Assembly (NCBI GenBank): GCA_030692055.1
Contig: JAUYCY010000103.1
Coordinates: forward strand, 1 to 25,418
Source of the DNA: Candidatus Omnitrophota bacterium
GTDB lineage: Bacteria; Omnitrophota; Koll11; Duberdicusellales; 4484-171
Reading direction: 5' to 3'
Length of the DNA stretch: 25,418 nt
The notes beneath the pieces were generated by a model that searched no databases, was not told where the DNA came from, and was given only the letters and a program-made list of their open reading frames with translations. The translations under genes and the position numbers were made by a program. Of the stretch, positions 3,077 through 25,222 are shown piece after piece. Each line of letters begins with the position of its first letter. Position 1 is the stretch's first letter.

Positions 3077-4072
3077 CTACGGAATACGACAGCAATCTAT
3101 AAGCACCTGGCCCGCTGAGATGCCAGCATCGCCGACTGTCCCGGTACACACAGTTCTATTCGCATTCCAGGAACACGGAGTGACGCCATGATACTGGACC
3201 ACTCCTCCGGCGCCACCTTGGACACTATTGGTATCATAATACTCAAATCGGCCCGTTACACCGACATAATCAGCGGGGCAAGAAACAGGATACGATTGAC
3301 CGTTAACCACAGGCCCCCACGTATTTGAAACGCTCACGCAACTCAACTTAGCCGAAGTCTGTTTTGTGCCATCAGGATATTTAATGCCGTCTGTACCCGC
3401 GACTCCACCGATTTCGAGCTTGGCAGAAGGGCTTGACGTTCCAATACCGACATTGCCGTTTTCTTGAACTATAAATAGCTCTATGGCCGAGGGACCAAAC
3501 CAAAAGTTATCCTTCAGGATCATAAAGGCTCTAGTGTCGGGGTCATCATTGTCGGAATCAAGGAAAACAGCTACGGATCGATCACTAGTCAAACGTGCAA
3601 CGCCGTTATCTGCTTGTATCATGAAATTGGTTAGTTCAGTAGTTCCAGACTCAATTTCGTCATCTTCGAATAGAATGATTGGATTCACGCCTTTAAGGTG
3701 TAGTTGTCTTTCTGGAGTTGTTGTCCCAATACCTACATTCCAATCGGGACCATTTGTATAAAGGATATTTGTTCCTGCTGGATGCGTCCAGCTTGAGCCA
3801 GCCATACCCCAACCATATATTCCTGGTGCAGTTTCCCGGCATACCATAAGCTGGTTAACGTTGACTGTATTATCATAATACATAACCCCCTCATCATTAT
3901 CAGTAGCGCAATTAGGCACGGTGGTGGTGGGAAATAATCTTAAGTTCTGATATACCCCAAAGGGCGCAGGATAGTAGGTAGTGATAGTGATGGATTCGGT
4001 TTGGGAAAAGACGGGGATAATAAAACAGGTTGTAAGTATTGAAGCCAAAGAAAAAATAAACTTATTTCGCAT
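3077..4072 (-). CDS. Secreted modular surface/fibre-like protein, paralogue 2
   Basis: 331 residues with a signal peptide (about 1-23, ending PVFSQ) followed by TESITITTYYPAPFGVY. Next comes an LRLFPTTT...C...EGVMYYD...VNQLMVCRET module shared closely with the paralogue at 16763-17512, then two NVGIGT repeats (about residues 112-118 and 209-214; the second reads GNVGIGTSSPSAKLEIGG), a bridging IKYPDGTKQTSA segment, and a C-terminal domain of about 85 residues with at least six cysteines (LSCVSV, VSCPADY, TPCSW, TVCTG, DCCRIP), likely disulfide-bonded outside the cytoplasm. Start supported by GGAGGT upstream of the ATG and a plausible promoter at 4121-4149. A surface or extracellular role is inferred; ligand unknown. 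Confidence 0.85.
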   Translation of the reverse strand: MRNKFIFSLASILTTCFIIPVFSQTESITITTYYPAPFGVYQNLRLFPTTTVPNCATDNDEGVMYYDNTVNVNQLMVCRETAPGIYGWGMAGSSWTHPAGTNILYTNGPDWNVGIGTTTPERQLHLKGVNPIILFEDDEIESGTTELTNFMIQADNGVARLTSDRSVAVFLDSDNDDPDTRAFMILKDNFWFGPSAIELFIVQENGNVGIGTSSPSAKLEIGGVAGTDGIKYPDGTKQTSAKLSCVSVSNTWGPVVNGQSYPVSCPADYVGVTGRFEYYDTNSVQGGAGGVVQYHGVTPCSWNANRTVCTGTVGDAGISAGQVLIDCCRIP

Positions 4073-4310: not shown

Positions 4311-4687
4311 GATAGAATATGCTTTTTAAGCAAAACAAAAGAGTTACATTGCAAACTTTTGGATGAACCAATCTGCCTTTTTTGTAAAATTAGGGCTGCC
4401 GTAGGCAAAATTTGCCTGCACCTTTTTGGTGCGGACCTATTTATTATAATAGCAACAGTTTAAGCAAGTTACAAAGCTTCTGCATTTCTAATGCAAATTT
4501 TGGGTTGAATTGTTTGGGATTTTTGAGAACCTTAATGAAGTATATAAAGCGAAATCCCGACTGTGCCGTCGGAAGAGATTTACAAATTCGTGCTGATTCG
4601 TGTGTAATTTCCCGCCTCAGCGGGATCCCGCCAAATAAAAACATTAAGGGGCGGGACGTGTACTATTCGTGTTGAGAAAATAAAAAA
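4311..4687. other. Gene-free spacer between rrn operon and surface-protein gene
   Basis: No supported gene. It contains a near-perfect palindrome AGGCAAAATTTGCCT (4403-4417) next to a GCACC-TTTTT-GGTGC hairpin (4418-4432), and ATTCGTGCTGATTCGTGTG (about 4587-4604), a tandem-like motif similar in design to the CACAGAT arrays elsewhere. ORFs here have no family resemblance and no ribosome-binding site. Confidence 0.5.
4608..4632. repeat. Variant of the dispersed GGCGGATCCGCC palindrome
   Basis: TTTCCCGCCTCAGCGGGATCCCGCC: same layout as the copies at 5277, 13831, 20449 and 21627 (TTTCCGCC, short loop, GGCGGATCCGCC), but with an added C/G in each arm. Confidence 0.5.
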
Positions 4688-4805
4688 GCCCGGCAACTAC
4701 TTACTCTCCCACCTCCTTGCGAAGGCAGTACCATCAGCCTTAGAGAGCTTAACGGCCGTATTCGGAATGGGAACGGGTGTGGCCTCTCCAGTATGATCGC
4801 CGGGC
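4688..4805 (-). rRNA. rrf: 5S ribosomal RNA
   Basis: 118 nt. The terminal helix GCCCGGC/GCCGGGC closes the molecule (4799-4805 with 4688-4694). The conserved internal segments of bacterial 5S are visible on the minus strand (CCACACCCGTTCCCATTCCGAA and GTGGGAGAGTA). Immediately 3' of it the minus strand reads TTTTTTATTTT, so transcription may end on the terminal helix. Confidence 0.93.
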
Positions 4806-4822
4806 GTATAAAAACAGTAAAA

Positions 4823-4880
4823 CGCATGGCGCATAGAGCACAGCGTAAATTTTCTTACGCTATGCGCTTTGCGCTATGCG
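4823..4880. repeat. 26-bp inverted repeat in the 23S-5S spacer
   Basis: CGCATGGCGCATAGAGCACA... (4823-4848) pairs with 4855-4880 at 22 of 26 positions, with a 6-base loop. In the transcript this is a long hairpin between 23S and 5S, a possible RNase III processing stem or an inserted palindromic element. Its internal units (GCGCATAG, GCGCTATGCG) repeat within each arm. Confidence 0.65.
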
Positions 4881-5276
4881 ATAAAAACAAGGCTGAGTAT
4901 CAAGCCGATTGGCTTATTAGTAGTGCTCGGCTGAACACGTTACCGTGCTTACACCTGCACCCTATCAACGTAGTAGTCTACTACGAGCCTTCATCTCGAC
5001 TAACGCCGAGAAGGGATTCTTAGTTTCAAGGTGAGCTTCGCACTTAGATGCATTCAGCGCTTATCTCGTAGGAGCATAGTTACCCAGCCTTTACCCTTGG
5101 CAGGATAGCTGGCACGCCAGAGGCTCCTCTGTCCCGGTCCTCTCGTACTAGGGACAGTACCTCTTCAAGAATCCTTACACCCACACTGGATAGAGACCGA
5201 CAGTTTTGTTACTTCCCGTTCTTACGAACGGAAGGATTAGCCATTTCTGCTTCCGCCACATCATATTACTGATATG

Positions 5277-5300
5277 GGCGGATCCGCCTTAGGCGGAAAT
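5277..5300. repeat. Dispersed GGCGGATCCGCC palindrome inside the intron 3' region
   Basis: GGCGGATCCGCCTTAGGCGG plus AAAT (read on the + strand) matches the intergenic repeat found at 13831, 20449 and 21627. In the intron RNA it lies after the P7 3' strand, within a region that can fold as a peripheral stem (TTCCGCC with GGCGGAA). Confidence 0.65.
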
Positions 5301-5381
5301 CTCTGCATATCGCTATGCAGCTCGGACTATATCTTAACCCCGACACAATATCGGGGCCATTGGCGTATAGTCTCTGAGGTT

Positions 5382-5897
5382 TCAAGGTTTTAGAAGAATA
5401 TCTTTCGAATACTTTTTAAGTCCTGTCTTTGGTGAATTAAAAACTAATTTCACAACTCGATTGAAACCTGCACGCTTCAAGTGCTCTCTTTTATTTATAA
5501 TATCGAGCACTCTAACAAAAATTTGAAAATCAATATTTTTGTCAGAACGAAGCGGGTGTTTCTTGAAGAAAGGAATTAGCTTTTCGCATAGATCCTTTCT
5601 ATTTTTCACAATCAAAACCCATGTCCTATCTTTAGGATTTTTGAGGTGATTGGGTTTTAGGTATCCGCAACCCAATCTATTCTTGAATGCTTCAAGAATA
5701 TTCTTCCCACCTGGATTTTGACTTAAGTGAAATTCAGTAATAATTTGCCATTTTAAAGGCAAATCTTTGCGCTTACTGAACCCCACATAGAAACATCCTT
5801 CACCATCAACAAAACCCGCAAAGTACTCGTCGGAAATTCTCTTTTCCCTGCTTACCTGCTGATTGTCCGCATACTGCACATTTTCACTTGACACCAT
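5382..5897 (-). CDS. Single-motif LAGLIDADG homing endonuclease of the L2604 intron
   Basis: 171 residues with one LAGLIDADG helix, YFAGFVDGEGCFYVGFSKR (about 25-43), as in I-CreI-type enzymes that work as homodimers. Residues after it (ITEFHLSQNPGGKNILEAF, GCGYLKPN, WVLIVKNRKDLCEKLIPFF, HPLRSDKNIDFQIF) follow the expected alpha-beta-beta order. It should cut intronless 23S alleles around the L2604 site to drive intron spread. The N-terminus (MVSSENVQYADNQQV) is encoded by ribozyme-core sequence; ADNQQ is the translation of the P4/P5 3' strand. It stops at TGA 5382-5384, just before the P7 region. The start is uncertain: no clear Shine-Dalgarno lies before this ATG. Confidence 0.88.
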   Translation of the reverse strand: MVSSENVQYADNQQVSREKRISDEYFAGFVDGEGCFYVGFSKRKDLPLKWQIITEFHLSQNPGGKNILEAFKNRLGCGYLKPNHLKNPKDRTWVLIVKNRKDLCEKLIPFFKKHPLRSDKNIDFQIFVRVLDIINKREHLKRAGFNRVVKLVFNSPKTGLKKYSKDILLKP

Positions 5898-6202
5898 AGA
5901 GACATTATATCTCTACTTATCTTTTTATCAAGTAGTGAGTAATTCTCCGGACTTTCCAGCATATAGCTCCGACAATTTCCTTACGGAAATGTCGGAGTCC
6001 GATCCAATAAAAGTTGGTATCGGACCAATTTTAGAGACAGCAAACGGTCATTTTCACTGTCTTACGACGTTCTGAACCCAGCTCACGTACCCCTTTAACC
6101 GGCGAACAGCCGGACCCTTGGGACCTTCTCCAGCCCCAGGATGGGATGAGCCGACATCGAGGTGCCAAACCGGGTCGTCGATGTGAACTCTCGGACCCGA
6201 TT

Positions 6203-6245
<43 letters not shown>

Positions 6246-6727
6246 GCTTCCACAAGCAACCACCGGATCATTAGACCCCGCTTTCGCGTCTGCTCGGCCT
6301 GTCAGCCTCACAGTCAGGCACCCATATGCTCTTATACTCAACGTCCGATTTCCAAACGGACTGAAGGTACCTTTAGACCCTTCCGTTATCTTTTAGGAAG
6401 GAACCGCCCCAGTTAAACTGCCCGGCTGGAACTGTCCCCCAATTAAATGGGGTTAGAACCTTAATAAAGTAAGAGTGGTATTTCACTGATGGCTCCATTC
6501 TAGCTAGCGCCAGAACTTCAAAGCCTCCCACCTATGCTACACATACTACACCAAAATCCAATACCAGCGTACAGTAAAGGTTCCGGGGTCTTTTCGTCCG
6601 AGTGCGGGTAGACGGCATCTTCACCGCCACTACAACTTCACCGGGCTCCTCGTTGAGACAGCGCTGCTATGGTTATACCATTCGTGCGGGTCGGAACTTA
6701 CCCGACTAGGAATTTCGCTACCTTAGG

Positions 6728-7424
6728 CATTTTTGTTAGCTTTGTGTCGCCACAAAGATCGGACTATATCTTTCCCGACTCAACATCGGGATTCGGCGTA
6801 TAGTCTCTGAGGATTCTGCTAATTACTTCTTCTTTTGTTCGCTTACGTTGTTTACCTGCGTGATTCGTTGAATATGCTAATTCAACTAAACGCAAAGTAC
6901 CTTCAAGTGTTTTGTGCGCCTTATTCTCTAAAGCCAATGTTGCTTCCTTAAACATCAGGAAATTGCGACGCTTTATTGCTGAGGAGTATCGCATATATTT
7001 TTCGAAGAAAGGAATTACTTTCTCTACGATACTTCTTCGTGATGCAATCTTGTAAACTAAAACGTCCTCATTCCCTGGTTTAGGTACAATGCTTCCTGTG
7101 CCAAAAAAGTCTTTTGCTCGTTCCAGAAGTTCACGCGCTGACTTGTGTTGATAAATAAAAAATTCTGGATCGATGTAATAACCAAACTTGGCAGTAGGAT
7201 GTTGCTTAAAGGAGATGCATAAACTTCCCTCTCCCTCAATTAGGCCCGCAAGAAACCACTTGAACTCTTCTGTAATCTGCAGTCTTTCCTGCTGATTATC
7301 TGCATTCATACTTTGTCACCTCCTCGGTAGCATGAAATCTAACCAGATGTTCCAGCATATAGCCAAATTTTACAACGGCCACAGTCAGGTAGCAGCATAA
7401 TTACTTATTATGCTTAGACTTTTA
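6728..7424 (-). other. Group I intron in 23S at position L1923, with LAGLIDADG ORF
   Basis: 697 nt between exon ...CGTAACTATAACGGT and exon CCTAAGGTAGCG, the same insertion point as the Chlamydomonas eugametos intron encoding I-CeuI (after U1923). P1 can be drawn as exon AUAACGGU with intron GCCGUUGU: eight pairs including two wobbles, with U-G at the splice site; the intron ends in G. Core elements match the other intron closely: GCTATATGCTGGAACATCTGG, GCAGATAATCAGCAGG, CCTCAGAGACTATACGCC, a CCCGATGTTGAGTCGGG P8 hairpin, AAGATATAGTCC, and a CTTTGTGGCGACACAAAG P9 hairpin. I could not find a convincing P10. The loop of P1 is extended and holds an AGCATAAT/ATTATGCT hairpin. Confidence 0.9.
6764..7309 (-). 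CDS. Single-motif LAGLIDADG homing endonuclease of the L1923 intron
   Basis: 181 residues; the motif FLAGLIEGEGSLCISFK lies at about 19-35, one per chain, so a homodimer is expected. Following blocks (EFFIYQHKSARELLERAKDF, GTGSIVPKPGNEDVLVYKIA, SIVEKVIPFFEKY, KRRNFLMFKEA) fit the family fold. GAGGAGGTGA nine bases before the ATG is a strong ribosome-binding site, so this start is well supported. The N-terminal MNADNQQERL is read from the ribozyme P4/P5 strand, and the C-terminal RDYTPNPDVESGKI is read from P7, P8 and the 3' strand of P7, with the TAG stop inside AAGATATAGTCC. Predicted target: intronless 23S helix 69/71 junction, as for I-CeuI, though the two enzymes need not be closely related. 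Confidence 0.9.
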   Translation of the reverse strand: MNADNQQERLQITEEFKWFLAGLIEGEGSLCISFKQHPTAKFGYYIDPEFFIYQHKSARELLERAKDFFGTGSIVPKPGNEDVLVYKIASRRSIVEKVIPFFEKYMRYSSAIKRRNFLMFKEATLALENKAHKTLEGTLRLVELAYSTNHAGKQRKRTKEEVISRILRDYTPNPDVESGKI

Positions 7425-8844
7425 ACCGTTATAGTTACGGCCGCCATTCACCGGGGCTTCGGTTCAAAGCTTCAACCGACTTACGCCGGCCTAACCTCTT
7501 CCCTTAACCTTCCGGCATTGGGCAGGTCTCAGTCCCTATACATCCTCTTGCGAGTTAAGCAGGGACCTGTGTTTTTGCTAAACAGTCCCAGCAGCCATTT
7601 CACTGCGACCCCCGATAAATCGGGGGCACCCCTTCTTGCTAACGTACGGGGCTAGATTGCCGAGTTCCTTAACGAGAAATCTCCCGAGCGCCTTACCATT
7701 TGATGGTAGCCTACCTGTGTCGGATTGCGGTACGGTCATCAATAAACAATCTAAAAAGCTATTTCTTGGCACTTGGTCCTGGTGGGTTTACCCGCGCCGT
7801 AGCTTGGGCTCCCTTCCCGACTTACGTCGGAAAAACGGACACATCCAACAGTCCGACCACCGCACCTTATGCGTCACTCTTTAGATTAACGTCTATAGAT
7901 GGGGGGCGAATATTAACGCCCTTCCCCATTACCTACCCTCGAAATATCGAGGTACAGCTTAGGGACCGCCTAACCTCCGTCTGACGAACATTGACGGAGA
8001 AACCTGAGGCTTTCGGCGGACCGGTTTTTCACCGGTCTTTTCGCTACTCATTCCAAGATAATCTCTTCTGTACGCTCCAGCCTGTCTTACAACGAGACCT
8101 TCACTGCCTACAGAATGCTCCCCTACCACTTATCCCCCGCCTATGGCGGGGAATAAATCCGTAGTTTCGGTAACAGGCTTGAGCCCCGATCATTTTCGGC
8201 GCAGAACCACTCGACCGGTGAGCTATTACGCACTCTTTAAATGATGGCTGCCTCTAAGCCAACATCCCGGCTGTCTTAGCAGCTCCACATCCTTTTCCAC
8301 TTAGCCTGCTTTTAAGGACCTTAACTGACGGTCTGGGCTGTTTCCCTTTTGACTATGCAGCTTAGCCCGCACAGTCTCACTCCTTAGTATAGACTATAGC
8401 AATTCGGAGTTAGATTGGGTTTGGTATGGAGAAACTCCACCCTAGCCCATCCTGTACTCTACCTTCCATAGCCCTTACCTAAAGGCTGCCCCTAAAGGCA
8501 TTTCGGGGAGAACCAGCTATCACCAGCCTTGATTAGCCTTTCACTCCGACCCACAACTCATCCAAGACATTTTCAACTGTCACTGGTTCGAACCTCCCCC
8601 CGACTTTCGTCGGGGTTCGCTCTGGTCATGGGTAGATCGACTGGCTTCGGGTCTATTGCCTACCGCTAAGGCGCCCTATTCGGACTCGCTTTCGCTACGC
8701 CTCCTTCCGAACGTCGGAATTAGACTTGCGATAAACAAATAACTCCCTGGACCATTATGCAAAAGGTACGCCATTGTCCCGCCGAAGCGAGACTCTGACC
8801 GCTGTGTAAACTTATGGTTTCAAGTTCTATTTCACTCCCCTTCC

Positions 8845-8880
<36 letters not shown>

Positions 8881-9331
8881 ACTATCGGTCTGGTGCGTGT
8901 ATTTAGCCTTACCCTGTGGTCAGGGCAGATTCCAACAGAGTTTCTCGTGCTCCGTTGTACTTGGAAACATTGCCACAGAAGTCTAACCCATTTAACTTAC
9001 AGGGCTATCACCTTCTTTGGCTCAGTTTTTCAACTGATTCTGCTACAGGTTAGATTTGTAACTTCTTGAAAGTTCTGCTGCACTCTCCGACAATGCTCCG
9101 CAACCCCCAACAAGCAACGCCAGCAGGCTTGACACTTGTCAGGTTTAGGCTATTCCCTTTTCGCTCGCCGCTACTGGGGGAATACTATTCGGTTTCTTTT
9201 CCTCCGGGTACTGAAATGTTTTACTTCCCCAGGTTAGCTTCCCGCCTTACGGCGGAACTTGCAGGTATTACCCCGCAAAGGTTTTCCCATTCGGAAATCT
9301 GCGGGTCAAAGATTGCTTGCATCTTACCGCA

Positions 9332-9363
<32 letters not shown>

Positions 9364-9417
9364 AGCACCAACCAAGCTATCCACCATAAGCCGTTAGTAG
9401 CTTGATACTCAACCAAA

Positions 9418-9430
9418 TTTTCAAAGAACA
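9418..9430 (-). promoter_or_regulatory. boxA-like antitermination site before 23S
   Basis: Minus strand TGTTCTTTGAAAA, close to the rrn boxA consensus (TGYTCTTTRAAAA type), a few bases upstream of the 23S 5' end. A similar sequence precedes 16S at 11888-11901. Confidence 0.7.
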
Positions 9431-10278: not shown

Positions 10279-11858
<1,580 letters not shown>

Positions 11859-16762: not shown

Positions 16763-17512
16763 TTATTTCCAGCAAACAATTACATTAAAAATATCAGCAC
16801 TGCCTCCAACGAGAACAGGAGGCATGAGCTGCTGAGAATGATACCCTGCCGGACACGACATACCGCCCGTATAAGGGTTGACTACATACCACGATGAAAC
16901 ATCTATGCCCAACCCCTCGTAGAAAGAAATCCACTCGCAGAGATAACAAGAATAGGCTCCTCCGAAATCTCCTCCAAACGTTTTCCAGCCGTTATTATAG
17001 TAATCCATAGAACCGTCGGTAGTATTAAACATCATCATTCCATTAACAGGGCCAGCTATAGCATTTCTATCGCCTTTAGTCATTCTCGGCGGAAGAAATC
17101 CGCTTGTATTTGAATTTACATCCAGTATTGCTTGTGGATTATCTGTCCCAATACCCACATTCCAGTTAGTATCATTGGCATAGAGGTCATTCGTTCCTGC
17201 AGGATGTGTCCAGTTAGAGCCAGCTACAACAAAACCATATGTTCCTGGTGTGGTTTCGCGGCATACCATAAGCTGGTTTACAGTTAACCTGTCATCGTAA
17301 TACATCACTCCTTCATTATTAGCATTGCAGGCAGGAATAGTGGTAGTAGGAAATAACCTAAGGTTTCCATACACCCCAAAAGGTGCAGGATAATAGGTAG
17401 TGATGGTGATGGATTCGGTTTGTTGGCAGAAGGCTGGGCCAATGGAGATAAAAATAAAAAGTGAAAGAAACACTAAAAAAGGAACATATAACCCTGGAAA
17501 ACGCTTCTTCAT
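16763..17512 (-). CDS. Secreted modular surface/fibre-like protein, paralogue 3
   Basis: 249 residues. Signal peptide about 1-30 (MKKRF, hydrophobic, GPAFCQQ), then TESITITTYYPAPFGVY. The next ~70 residues (LRLFPTTTIPAC, EGVMYYD, VNQLMVCRETTPGTYGF, SNWTHPAGTNDLYAND) closely match paralogue 2, followed by one NVGIGTDNPQAILDV repeat and an SGFLPPRMTKGDRNAI module matching paralogue 1. A cysteine-containing C-terminal domain (SCYLCEW, MSCPAGYH, VIVCWK) is probably disulfide-bonded. It is thus a mosaic of the other two. Start supported by a GAGGG site; a good promoter lies at 17556-17583. Role on the cell surface is inferred. Confidence 0.85.
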   Translation of the reverse strand: MKKRFPGLYVPFLVFLSLFIFISIGPAFCQQTESITITTYYPAPFGVYGNLRLFPTTTIPACNANNEGVMYYDDRLTVNQLMVCRETTPGTYGFVVAGSNWTHPAGTNDLYANDTNWNVGIGTDNPQAILDVNSNTSGFLPPRMTKGDRNAIAGPVNGMMMFNTTDGSMDYYNNGWKTFGGDFGGAYSCYLCEWISFYEGLGIDVSSWYVVNPYTGGMSCPAGYHSQQLMPPVLVGGSADIFNVIVCWK

Positions 17513-23788: not shown

Positions 23789-25222
23789 TTACCTGGAAAG
23801 CGTAAATAGAATAGATTTATTTTTTAAGGTAAGGTAAGTAGCTTTGCCGATAAGCTTAAGAGTTTCGACATTTTTCTTAAGAGTTGTGGCAGGGATAGAA
23901 GCAAGATCGGTGATATAAGAACGAGAAAGCAACAAAACATAAAATGTATTCTTATCCCCAAATGCTGCTTGATAAGAGTGGTGATTCCAATCGCTTCCGA
24001 CAAAAACAAAAATAATTTTTTCCTTAAAATTTTCGTGAAATATTTTATATACCTTATCAATGTTTTTTCTGTCGGCATGAAAATAAAGAACAACCTCAAT
24101 AAATTTATGAGTTGCCGTAACTTTCTTTTTTGCCTCTTCAATGATCTGCCTTAAAGGCCAAGAGCAAATATCATTACTTTTATCTTGCGCGAGTTTACGC
24201 ATTTCTTCCTTGTATTTTTCCACAAATTCTTGGTCAACAAAATTTATTCTTTTCAAAGCAGAGTAAAAAGCAATAAATATCTGGAAAAAATACATCTGGG
24301 ACATGAGAGAAGCTACAGGATCACTAATTTCTAATTTAAGCTCCAAAGGTAAAAATAGATTATTCTGCTTTTTGGCTGAACATATTGTCTTAACGGTTAA
24401 GTTTTGGCTCTTGGAACCCAAAGATTCCTGAAAAAGCTGAACAACCCAAGAAGAAAGGCGCTCGCTGAACCTCCCGGTCACGGTAGGAGAAAAATATGCG
24501 CGTTCAGTATCTTTATACTTTTCAACAAAAGAATACGCCTGCCTTCTAATAGCTTCTTGAGAAGAAACATAGCTGGTATAAACATTTTCTAATGCTTTAA
24601 AATTTTTATTTAAAAGTATAAATAAAGGAAGAAAAAATATGTTGGTATTAGGGGAAGAGAACCTACCACCAATATCGGATTCTCTGTTAAACTGTATAGG
24701 TAACCTCGCAATGCCTTTCCAACCCAATGAATCAAGTTTATCAAATGCCGCAGGATCGCTAAGCCACAGAAAGTGCTGTTGCCAATTTTTTGTAAATAAT
24801 TCTTTTAAGGTGTGGGAAAGAAGTTGAGTTTCCTGCGTAGTCGCGGATTTAGATATAGAAATAACTAAAGTTTTATCTATATCTTTTATTTTTCCTAAAA
24901 TCTCTTTAACGGCTAGGGGATCAAGACTATCTAGCGTATGCAGGGAATGTTTCTTAAATAAAGAAAATAATGTCTTTATGCCATTTATAGAGCCCCCCAT
25001 GCCCACAAATATAAAGTTCTCTTTTCCCTCCAAAATAGGCAGGGCCGTGTTCAGTGCTTTTTTTATTTCGGCATAAGGGGCAATTTCTACCCATCCTAAT
25101 CTTTTCTTTTCCTTATCAAAACCAACTTCTCTATAGGGATTATCTAAGGGTAAATCTTTTTTAGATTTTCCTACTGCCCCAAGAAGATACTGTTCTAGTT
25201 TGCTGTTATATTTTTGTTCCAT
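23789..25222 (-). CDS. pgi: Glucose-6-phosphate isomerase, divergent
   Basis: 477 residues with the SIS-fold layout of PGI: GMGGSINGIKTL (74-85), ISISKSATTQET (121-132), RESDIGGRFSS (180-190), QLFQESLGSKSQN (262-274, Glu266 as candidate catalytic base) and SDWNHHSYQAAFG late in the chain. Interconverts glucose-6-phosphate and fructose-6-phosphate. Divergent points: SKSATT replaces the usual SKSGTT in the phosphate-binding loop, and the C-terminal catalytic lysine region is not obvious. Shorter than E. coli PGI (549). PGI-like domains fused to transaldolase look similar, but no transaldolase domain is present. No strong ribosome-binding site is visible before the ATG. Confidence 0.8.
   Translation of the reverse strand: MEQKYNSKLEQYLLGAVGKSKKDLPLDNPYREVGFDKEKKRLGWVEIAPYAEIKKALNTALPILEGKENFIFVGMGGSINGIKTLFSLFKKHSLHTLDSLDPLAVKEILGKIKDIDKTLVISISKSATTQETQLLSHTLKELFTKNWQQHFLWLSDPAAFDKLDSLGWKGIARLPIQFNRESDIGGRFSSPNTNIFFLPLFILLNKNFKALENVYTSYVSSQEAIRRQAYSFVEKYKDTERAYFSPTVTGRFSERLSSWVVQLFQESLGSKSQNLTVKTICSAKKQNNLFLPLELKLEISDPVASLMSQMYFFQIFIAFYSALKRINFVDQEFVEKYKEEMRKLAQDKSNDICSWPLRQIIEEAKKKVTATHKFIEVVLYFHADRKNIDKVYKIFHENFKEKIIFVFVGSDWNHHSYQAAFGDKNTFYVLLLSRSYITDLASIPATTLKKNVETLKLIGKATYLTLKNKSILFTLSR

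Follow-up and report, generated by a model that had tools for sequence, protein, structure and literature searches.

The 23S rRNA gene studied here is interrupted directly after the base that corresponds to E. coli U2604, and the question raised by this locus is what kind of element sits there and whether its site is as unusual as the original prediction supposed. We conclude with considerable confidence that the element is a mobile group I intron with a LAGLIDADG homing endonuclease, lodged in the 23S gene of a probable Omnitrophota bacterium. The site, the fold and the reading frame are results of computation, and so is the finding that other genomes carry relatives at this base.

The rRNA operon and the junction at 2604

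The window, that is the whole stretch of 25,418 nt that was analysed, holds a single rRNA operon, on the minus strand, with the 16S gene at 10280-11858, tRNA-Ile and tRNA-Ala in the spacer, the start of the 23S gene at 9407 and the 5S gene at 4688-4804. Compared with E. coli rrlB, the 23S gene is interrupted twice, by 697 nt after position 1923 and by 855 nt after position 2604. The MAFFT alignment to rrlB listed the 1923 intron together with an insertion of 78 nt after E. coli 277 (9061-9138, minus strand); the 2604 junction was obtained from the blastn pieces, the numbering and the exon letters. A long and stable hairpin also lies between the 23S and 5S genes (4815-4890; −35.3 kcal/mol, z −6.3).

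The intron at 2604 occupies 5201-6055 on the minus strand. The 5′ exon ends at 6056 (..CGTAAGACAGT), the 3′ exon starts at 5200 (TCGGTCTC..) and the terminal base of the intron is a G. In rrlB, GAGACAGT begins at 2597, which places the junction between U2604 and U2605, and the blastn piece corresponding to E. coli 1924-2604 terminates at window position 6056. A2602 thus lies two bases before the junction, and 2593 lies 11 before it. The original prediction had given these borders, with AGACAGT joined to TCGGTC, and had counted the number 2604 and the two distances by hand, proposing an alignment to E. coli as the check; the borders and the exon joining proved exact, and the alignment returned the number and the distances as counted. 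Junctions shifted by one to three bases were rejected. They gave 53-57 identities out of 80 against 58 out of 80 for the true one, a difference that discriminates weakly; the choice was made on the terminal G and the letters of the exons.

As for the host, the 16S gene of the window is 73-80% identical to those of the Omnitrophota genomes tried: 80% for G013, 78% for G009 (74% at its second place), 77-78% for G001, 77% for G004, 73-79% for G005 and 73% for both G012 and G007, with short pieces in G006 and no match in G002, G003 and G008. Identity to the Ratteibacteria genome G011 was 76%. Genomes of other phyla, 12 of 14 of which matched, gave 66-75% over stretches of at least 490 nt, and a ‘Nitrospirae’ bin (that of locus L113) had a match of 384 nt at the 3′ end with 81% identity.

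Elsewhere in the window, three proteins (613-1683, 3077-4072 and 16763-17512, minus strand) have a common start with TESITITTYYPAPFGVY, and none of them matched an NCBIfam family at E 0.001. A glucose-6-phosphate-isomerase-like protein (23789-25222, minus strand) scores 68.9 against 487 bits, far under the curated cut-offs; it is 46% identical to one in the Omnitrophota bin G008, with weak matches elsewhere.

Fold of the intron RNA

The original prediction had called the element a group I intron and had suggested a covariance-model search as a means of checking it. This search (cmscan against Rfam) matched Intron_gpI at 5303-5530 with 44.1 bits and an E-value of 8e-10, which bears out the identity. 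The gathering score of the family is 50, and the intron is therefore unlisted by a default Rfam search; the reading frame inserted in the RNA may depress the score. The elements at the splice sites can be read directly from the sequence, as the original prediction had described them. The 5′ exon strand of P1 (AGACAGU, 6056-6062) pairs over 7 bp with the internal guide sequence (IGS; GCUGUCU, 6035-6041), with a U-G pair at the splice site, and the intron closes with the terminal G. P10 consists of 5 bp between GACCG and CGGUC, its intron strand standing 3 nt ahead of the IGS and its partner lying in the first bases of the 3′ exon (UCGGUC, 5195-5200), the first of which is unpaired. The window intron thus has the P1 U-G, the terminal G and the P10 of a group I intron. 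Across the family, P10 is enriched rather than universal: among the matches listed, it reaches at least 5 bp in 30 of 81 introns, where 200 shuffles gave a mean of 12.7 and a maximum of 21, and this is only a trend.

The conserved core from P3 to P9, with the P3/P7 pseudoknot, is present on the minus strand. The 5′ strand of P3 lies at 6025-6029. The 3′ strand of P5, J5/4, the 3′ strand of P4 and the start of P6 follow at 5855-5871, inside the reading frame; the 5′ strand of P7 and the 3′ strand of P3 stand at 5359-5376 with one base between them. The 3′ strand of P7 lies in the region 5324-5335 (AAGAUAUAGUCC), and the P9 hairpin at 5303-5320. A script that checked the pairing in the window intron found every pair formed in P3 (6 of 6, one of them G-U), P4 (5 of 5), P5 (4 of 4), P7 (7 of 7) and P9 (7 of 7).

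The fold is supported by covariation in an alignment, A2, of 12 short introns without reading frame taken from the 82 both-exon loci listed (see below). The P1 core is invariant in these 12 introns. RNAalifold returned the group I layout without P7, and P7 was then added by hand. With P7 included, 95.7% of the 842 cells are paired and 35 of the 71 pairs show changes on both sides; in P7 itself these values are 96.4% of cells and two of seven pairs. The covariation score was 0.385, against 0.152 (sd 0.011) for shuffled alignments and 0.061-0.088 for slid versions, a sliding control that favours a structure drawn, as this one was, from the very alignment on which it was scored. One of the five measures, the number of further pair types (63), was reached in 14 of 500 shuffles.

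An endonuclease start coded within the ribozyme core

The intron contains a reading frame for 171 aa on the minus strand (5382-5897), which matches the LAGLIDADG_1 profile PF00961 with 72.6 bits (E 5.5e-20, cut-off 23.1). The match is one stretch covering profile positions 2-100 of 102, as in a single-motif enzyme. The protein has 334 homologues at E ≤ 0.001, the best of which is 99% identical and comes from another contig. Among solved relatives, aHE15 is the best and the others are of the I-OnuI and I-SmaMI types (E 2e-30 and weaker); I-CeuI follows at E 2.4e-5.

Part of the ribozyme core is translated in this frame. The stretch that forms P5 3′, J5/4, P4 3′ and the start of P6 is read as ADNQQ in the window, and the same arrangement, with the motif inside the frame and in the same phase as DNQQ or a near variant, was found in 40 of the 44 introns that bear a reading frame. 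In one of the remaining introns (L103) the core motif lies upstream of the reading frame and out of its phase; in the other three it was unmatched within two mismatches, yet their proteins begin with ADNQQ, AGNQQ or ADHQQ. Exact DNQQ is present in 33 of the 44, and DNQQ with at most one substitution occurs in the first 60 residues of all of the best 120 of the 334 homologues. Reading frames that extend into the core have a precedent in PMC1995217, where one running from P6 through P7, P3 and P8 is described. In-frame core strands that double as the start of the endonuclease tie ribozyme and enzyme to each other within a single piece of DNA.

We built a tree from the 44 proteins of at least 130 aa found in the 83 site-2604 introns (the window and the 82 listed loci), plus the protein of the intron at 1923. 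The window protein pairs with that of an Omnitrophota locus, L061 (support 95/80, 72% identity), within a 100/100 clade of nine rows made up of five CPR, two Omnitrophota, one Ratteibacteria and the window itself. The proteins of L106 and of the 1923 intron are on long branches. Four host labels placed on this tree require 11 changes, when the least possible is 3 and the shuffle average is 23.1; none of 200 shuffles was as low. The labels are part clustered and part mixed, as homing together with some vertical descent would give.

By analogy with known group I introns and LAGLIDADG enzymes, the RNA would adopt the group I core, in which P1 would grip the 5′ exon and P10 the 3′ exon. The intron would then excise itself in two transesterification steps that use an external guanosine, and the exons would be rejoined as AGACAGU and UCGGUC beside A2602. 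The reading frame is predicted to give a single-motif LAGLIDADG endonuclease acting as a homodimer, which would cut intron-less 23S genes around 2604, so that the intron may be copied in by homing.

Extra double hairpins and the competing readings

The copy in the window differs from its relatives by two extra double hairpins, both on the minus strand. One of 57-58 nt lies between the 5′ strand of P3 and J3/4 (5968-6024, the right border may include 5967) and folds with −31.2 kcal/mol and a z-score of −6.2. The stretch from the IGS to P4 consequently measures 88 nt in the window, against 30 nt in 63 of the 81 introns measured, and the window is alone among these 81 in having an insert beside the 5′ strand of P3. 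Inspected by eye, the 17 other copies with a long IGS-to-P4 stretch (16 titled CPR and one, L084, titled ‘bacterium’) keep the P3-J3/4-P4 block unbroken, with their extra bases before the block. The other double hairpin, of 46 nt (5252-5297), lies in P9.1 and has a z-score of −4.3 with its flanks; by eye, it is lacking in L088 and in most other introns of A2. A repeat search found no copy of either inserted hairpin in window 4680-9420. Nor does a repeat family appear to lie behind them, as only one of the 35 window hairpins with a stem of at least 9 begins with CTCCG; three single-base shuffles contained 11-15 hairpins with such a stem.

Such additions at P3/J3-4 and P9.1 could disturb the core, and one may ask whether the window intron is degenerate, its splicing damaged by the double hairpins and its rRNA copy silent or poorly processed. 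The insert seen in the window alone, and the stability of both hairpins, would suit this idea. We nevertheless find it improbable, as P1, P3, P4, P5, P7 and P9 are still fully paired, the reading frame is open and spans the Pfam profile, and a 99% identical protein is found on another contig; moreover, a dead copy would break the 23S gene of the sole rRNA operon in the window. Far less credible still is an intervening sequence excised without ligation, or an expansion retained in the rRNA. According to the available text of PMC11270868, intervening sequences occur in bacterial 23S genes, and the 78-nt insertion after E. coli 277 is a case of additional sequence in this very gene; against this, the element has the group I fold, P1 and the terminal G, its family shows covariation, and it is located in the conserved peptidyl-transferase region. 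A functional, mobile group I intron remains the reading that we favour.

Occupancy of site 2604 and known counterparts

The original prediction regarded the site as apparently rare and perhaps new. Rarity did not survive a scan of contigs from GTDB genomes, in which we looked for a 5′ exon that ends in U2604 and is not continued by a U; at least 115 stretches were returned. Both exons were accepted when a G at a distance of over 150 nt downstream was followed by a 3′ exon with at most two substitutions from TCGGTC[CT]CTATC[CT]. On these terms at least 82 loci show an intron at 2604 flanked by its two exons (82 of the 115 listed), and their terminal G is a selection and not a result because the scan required it. 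Of the 33 listed loci left outside, 28 have no recognised 3′ exon, three (L007, L064 and L090) have substitutions at U2605 and two (L020 and L039) have their best 3′ exon after an A; an IGS lies within 60 nt in 25 of the 33, and the sequence left is shorter than 950 nt in 10. An IGS within 60 nt of the site is present in 105 of the 115 listed loci. In L007, L064 and L090, titled Microthrix, Bacteroidia and Nitrospira, U2605 is replaced by A or G without an intron, through real variation or an assembly error. Among the matches listed, the window included, introns at 2604 range from 241 to 901 nt. Viral carriage was considered and discarded, with no stretch bearing the exon pattern in viral contigs.

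The 82 loci listed comprise 26 titled CPR, 54 with other titles and two titled only ‘bacterium’, these hosts being names from record titles, and the bins behind them may be wrong, above all for short contigs. The 54 include 23 Omnitrophota, 17 Actinobacteria in the wide sense, three Armatimonadota (counting Nitrosymbiomonas among them), two ‘Deltaproteobacteria’ and one each of Acidobacteria, Dormibacteraeota, Chloroflexi, Dadabacteria, Methylococcaceae, Thiomargarita, Margulisiibacteriota, Nitrospirae and Ratteibacteria. In Omnitrophota (the phylum to which G009, the genome with locus L082, belongs by title), 27 of 384 genomes match the interrupted pattern and 116 the intact one; only G012 (the genome of L008) matches both, and 242 match neither. 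The interrupted pattern, which a U2605 substitution would match too, is thus found in 27 of the 142 genomes with a readable site, or about 19%. Two of the loci, L017 and L049, lie at opposite ends of one contig, both with an interrupted site. A Candidatus Thiomargarita nelsonii contig (L097) has a 752-nt intron at 2604; three 23S introns of Thiomargarita, given without E. coli numbers and unmatched by Rfam, appear in the accessible part of PMC4853749.

Novelty did not hold either. A CPR survey of 2024 (PMC11270868) already records, in the text available to us, LAGLIDADG_1 at 23S positions 1917, 1931, 1952, 2593, 2604 and 2657 (23IS6-8 and 23IS12-14), in which 2604 corresponds to 23IS13 by the order of the list; it describes group I introns at 23IS13 as previously unreported in known bacteria. 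That the original prediction named no catalogued bacterial group I intron at 2604 fits the older lists, as the LAGLIDADG rows in Table 1 of PMC1995217 (2007) give L1917, L1931, L1951 and L2593, and 2604 is absent from the main texts of PMC6125680 (2018, on archaea) and PMC3984707 (a 2014 review). The likeness of the window intron to the CPR 23IS13 introns lies in the position by number, the group I class and LAGLIDADG_1, the exact base of 23IS13 falling outside the available text of PMC11270868; the host is CPR there and probably Omnitrophota here. At least 26 CPR-titled loci of our scan have an intron at the same base as the window. The enzyme I-ShaI, which belongs to a different 23S site of CPR bacteria, is reported in the same paper to cut its target and to dimerise. 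For site 2604 outside CPR, we found no report in the open-access literature (preprints and most subscription journals excluded).

Two better-known sites invite comparison. The first is L2593, 11 bases away, the site of I-CreI. Its introns likewise have a single-motif LAGLIDADG reading frame and are found in cyanobacteria, and they possess P7.1 and P7.2, according to the part of PMC1995217 available to us, whereas the window intron has one base between P7 5′ and P3 3′. The lack of P7.1 and P7.2 in the window intron speaks against the L2593 type alone. A shifted L2593 intron was rejected: the insertion is after 2604, P7 and P3 are one base apart, and the 171-aa enzyme is nearest, among solved structures, to aHE15 and the I-OnuI and I-SmaMI types and not to I-CreI. 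The other site is L1923, that of I-CeuI, where the window has its second group I intron (6728-7424, minus strand; Intron_gpI at 36.8 bits, below the cut-off), with a LAGLIDADG_1 reading frame found by profile match (6764-7309, minus strand). Its protein matches I-CeuI at E 4.8e-25, and 4lq0 and aHE15 score better. The two introns of the window have core words and the ADNQQ start in common. The proteins are distant: that of L1923 sits on an end branch of 2.26, and none of the site-2604 enzymes in the tree is more than 39% identical to it.

Altogether, site 2604 is neither rare nor new, being recorded for CPR and interrupted in many other bacteria. Three points are mildly new, namely the occurrence beyond CPR, the coding of the first part of the endonuclease by the ribozyme core and the double hairpin at P3/J3-4. 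The site lends itself to the study of how homing into the peptidyl-transferase centre crosses phyla. There is also a practical caution for the 23S genes of these groups, which annotation may get wrong and primers placed near 2604 may fail to pick up. We suggest, tentatively and with more doubt than conviction, that the 2604 lineage is widely mobile among CPR, Omnitrophota and other phyla and that the copy in the window still splices with its self-contained P3-J3/4 double hairpin in place. We know of no description of new structured domains attached at such a point of a group I core. If the suggestion is true, P3-J3/4, next to the active site, would be an attachment point for domains of this kind.
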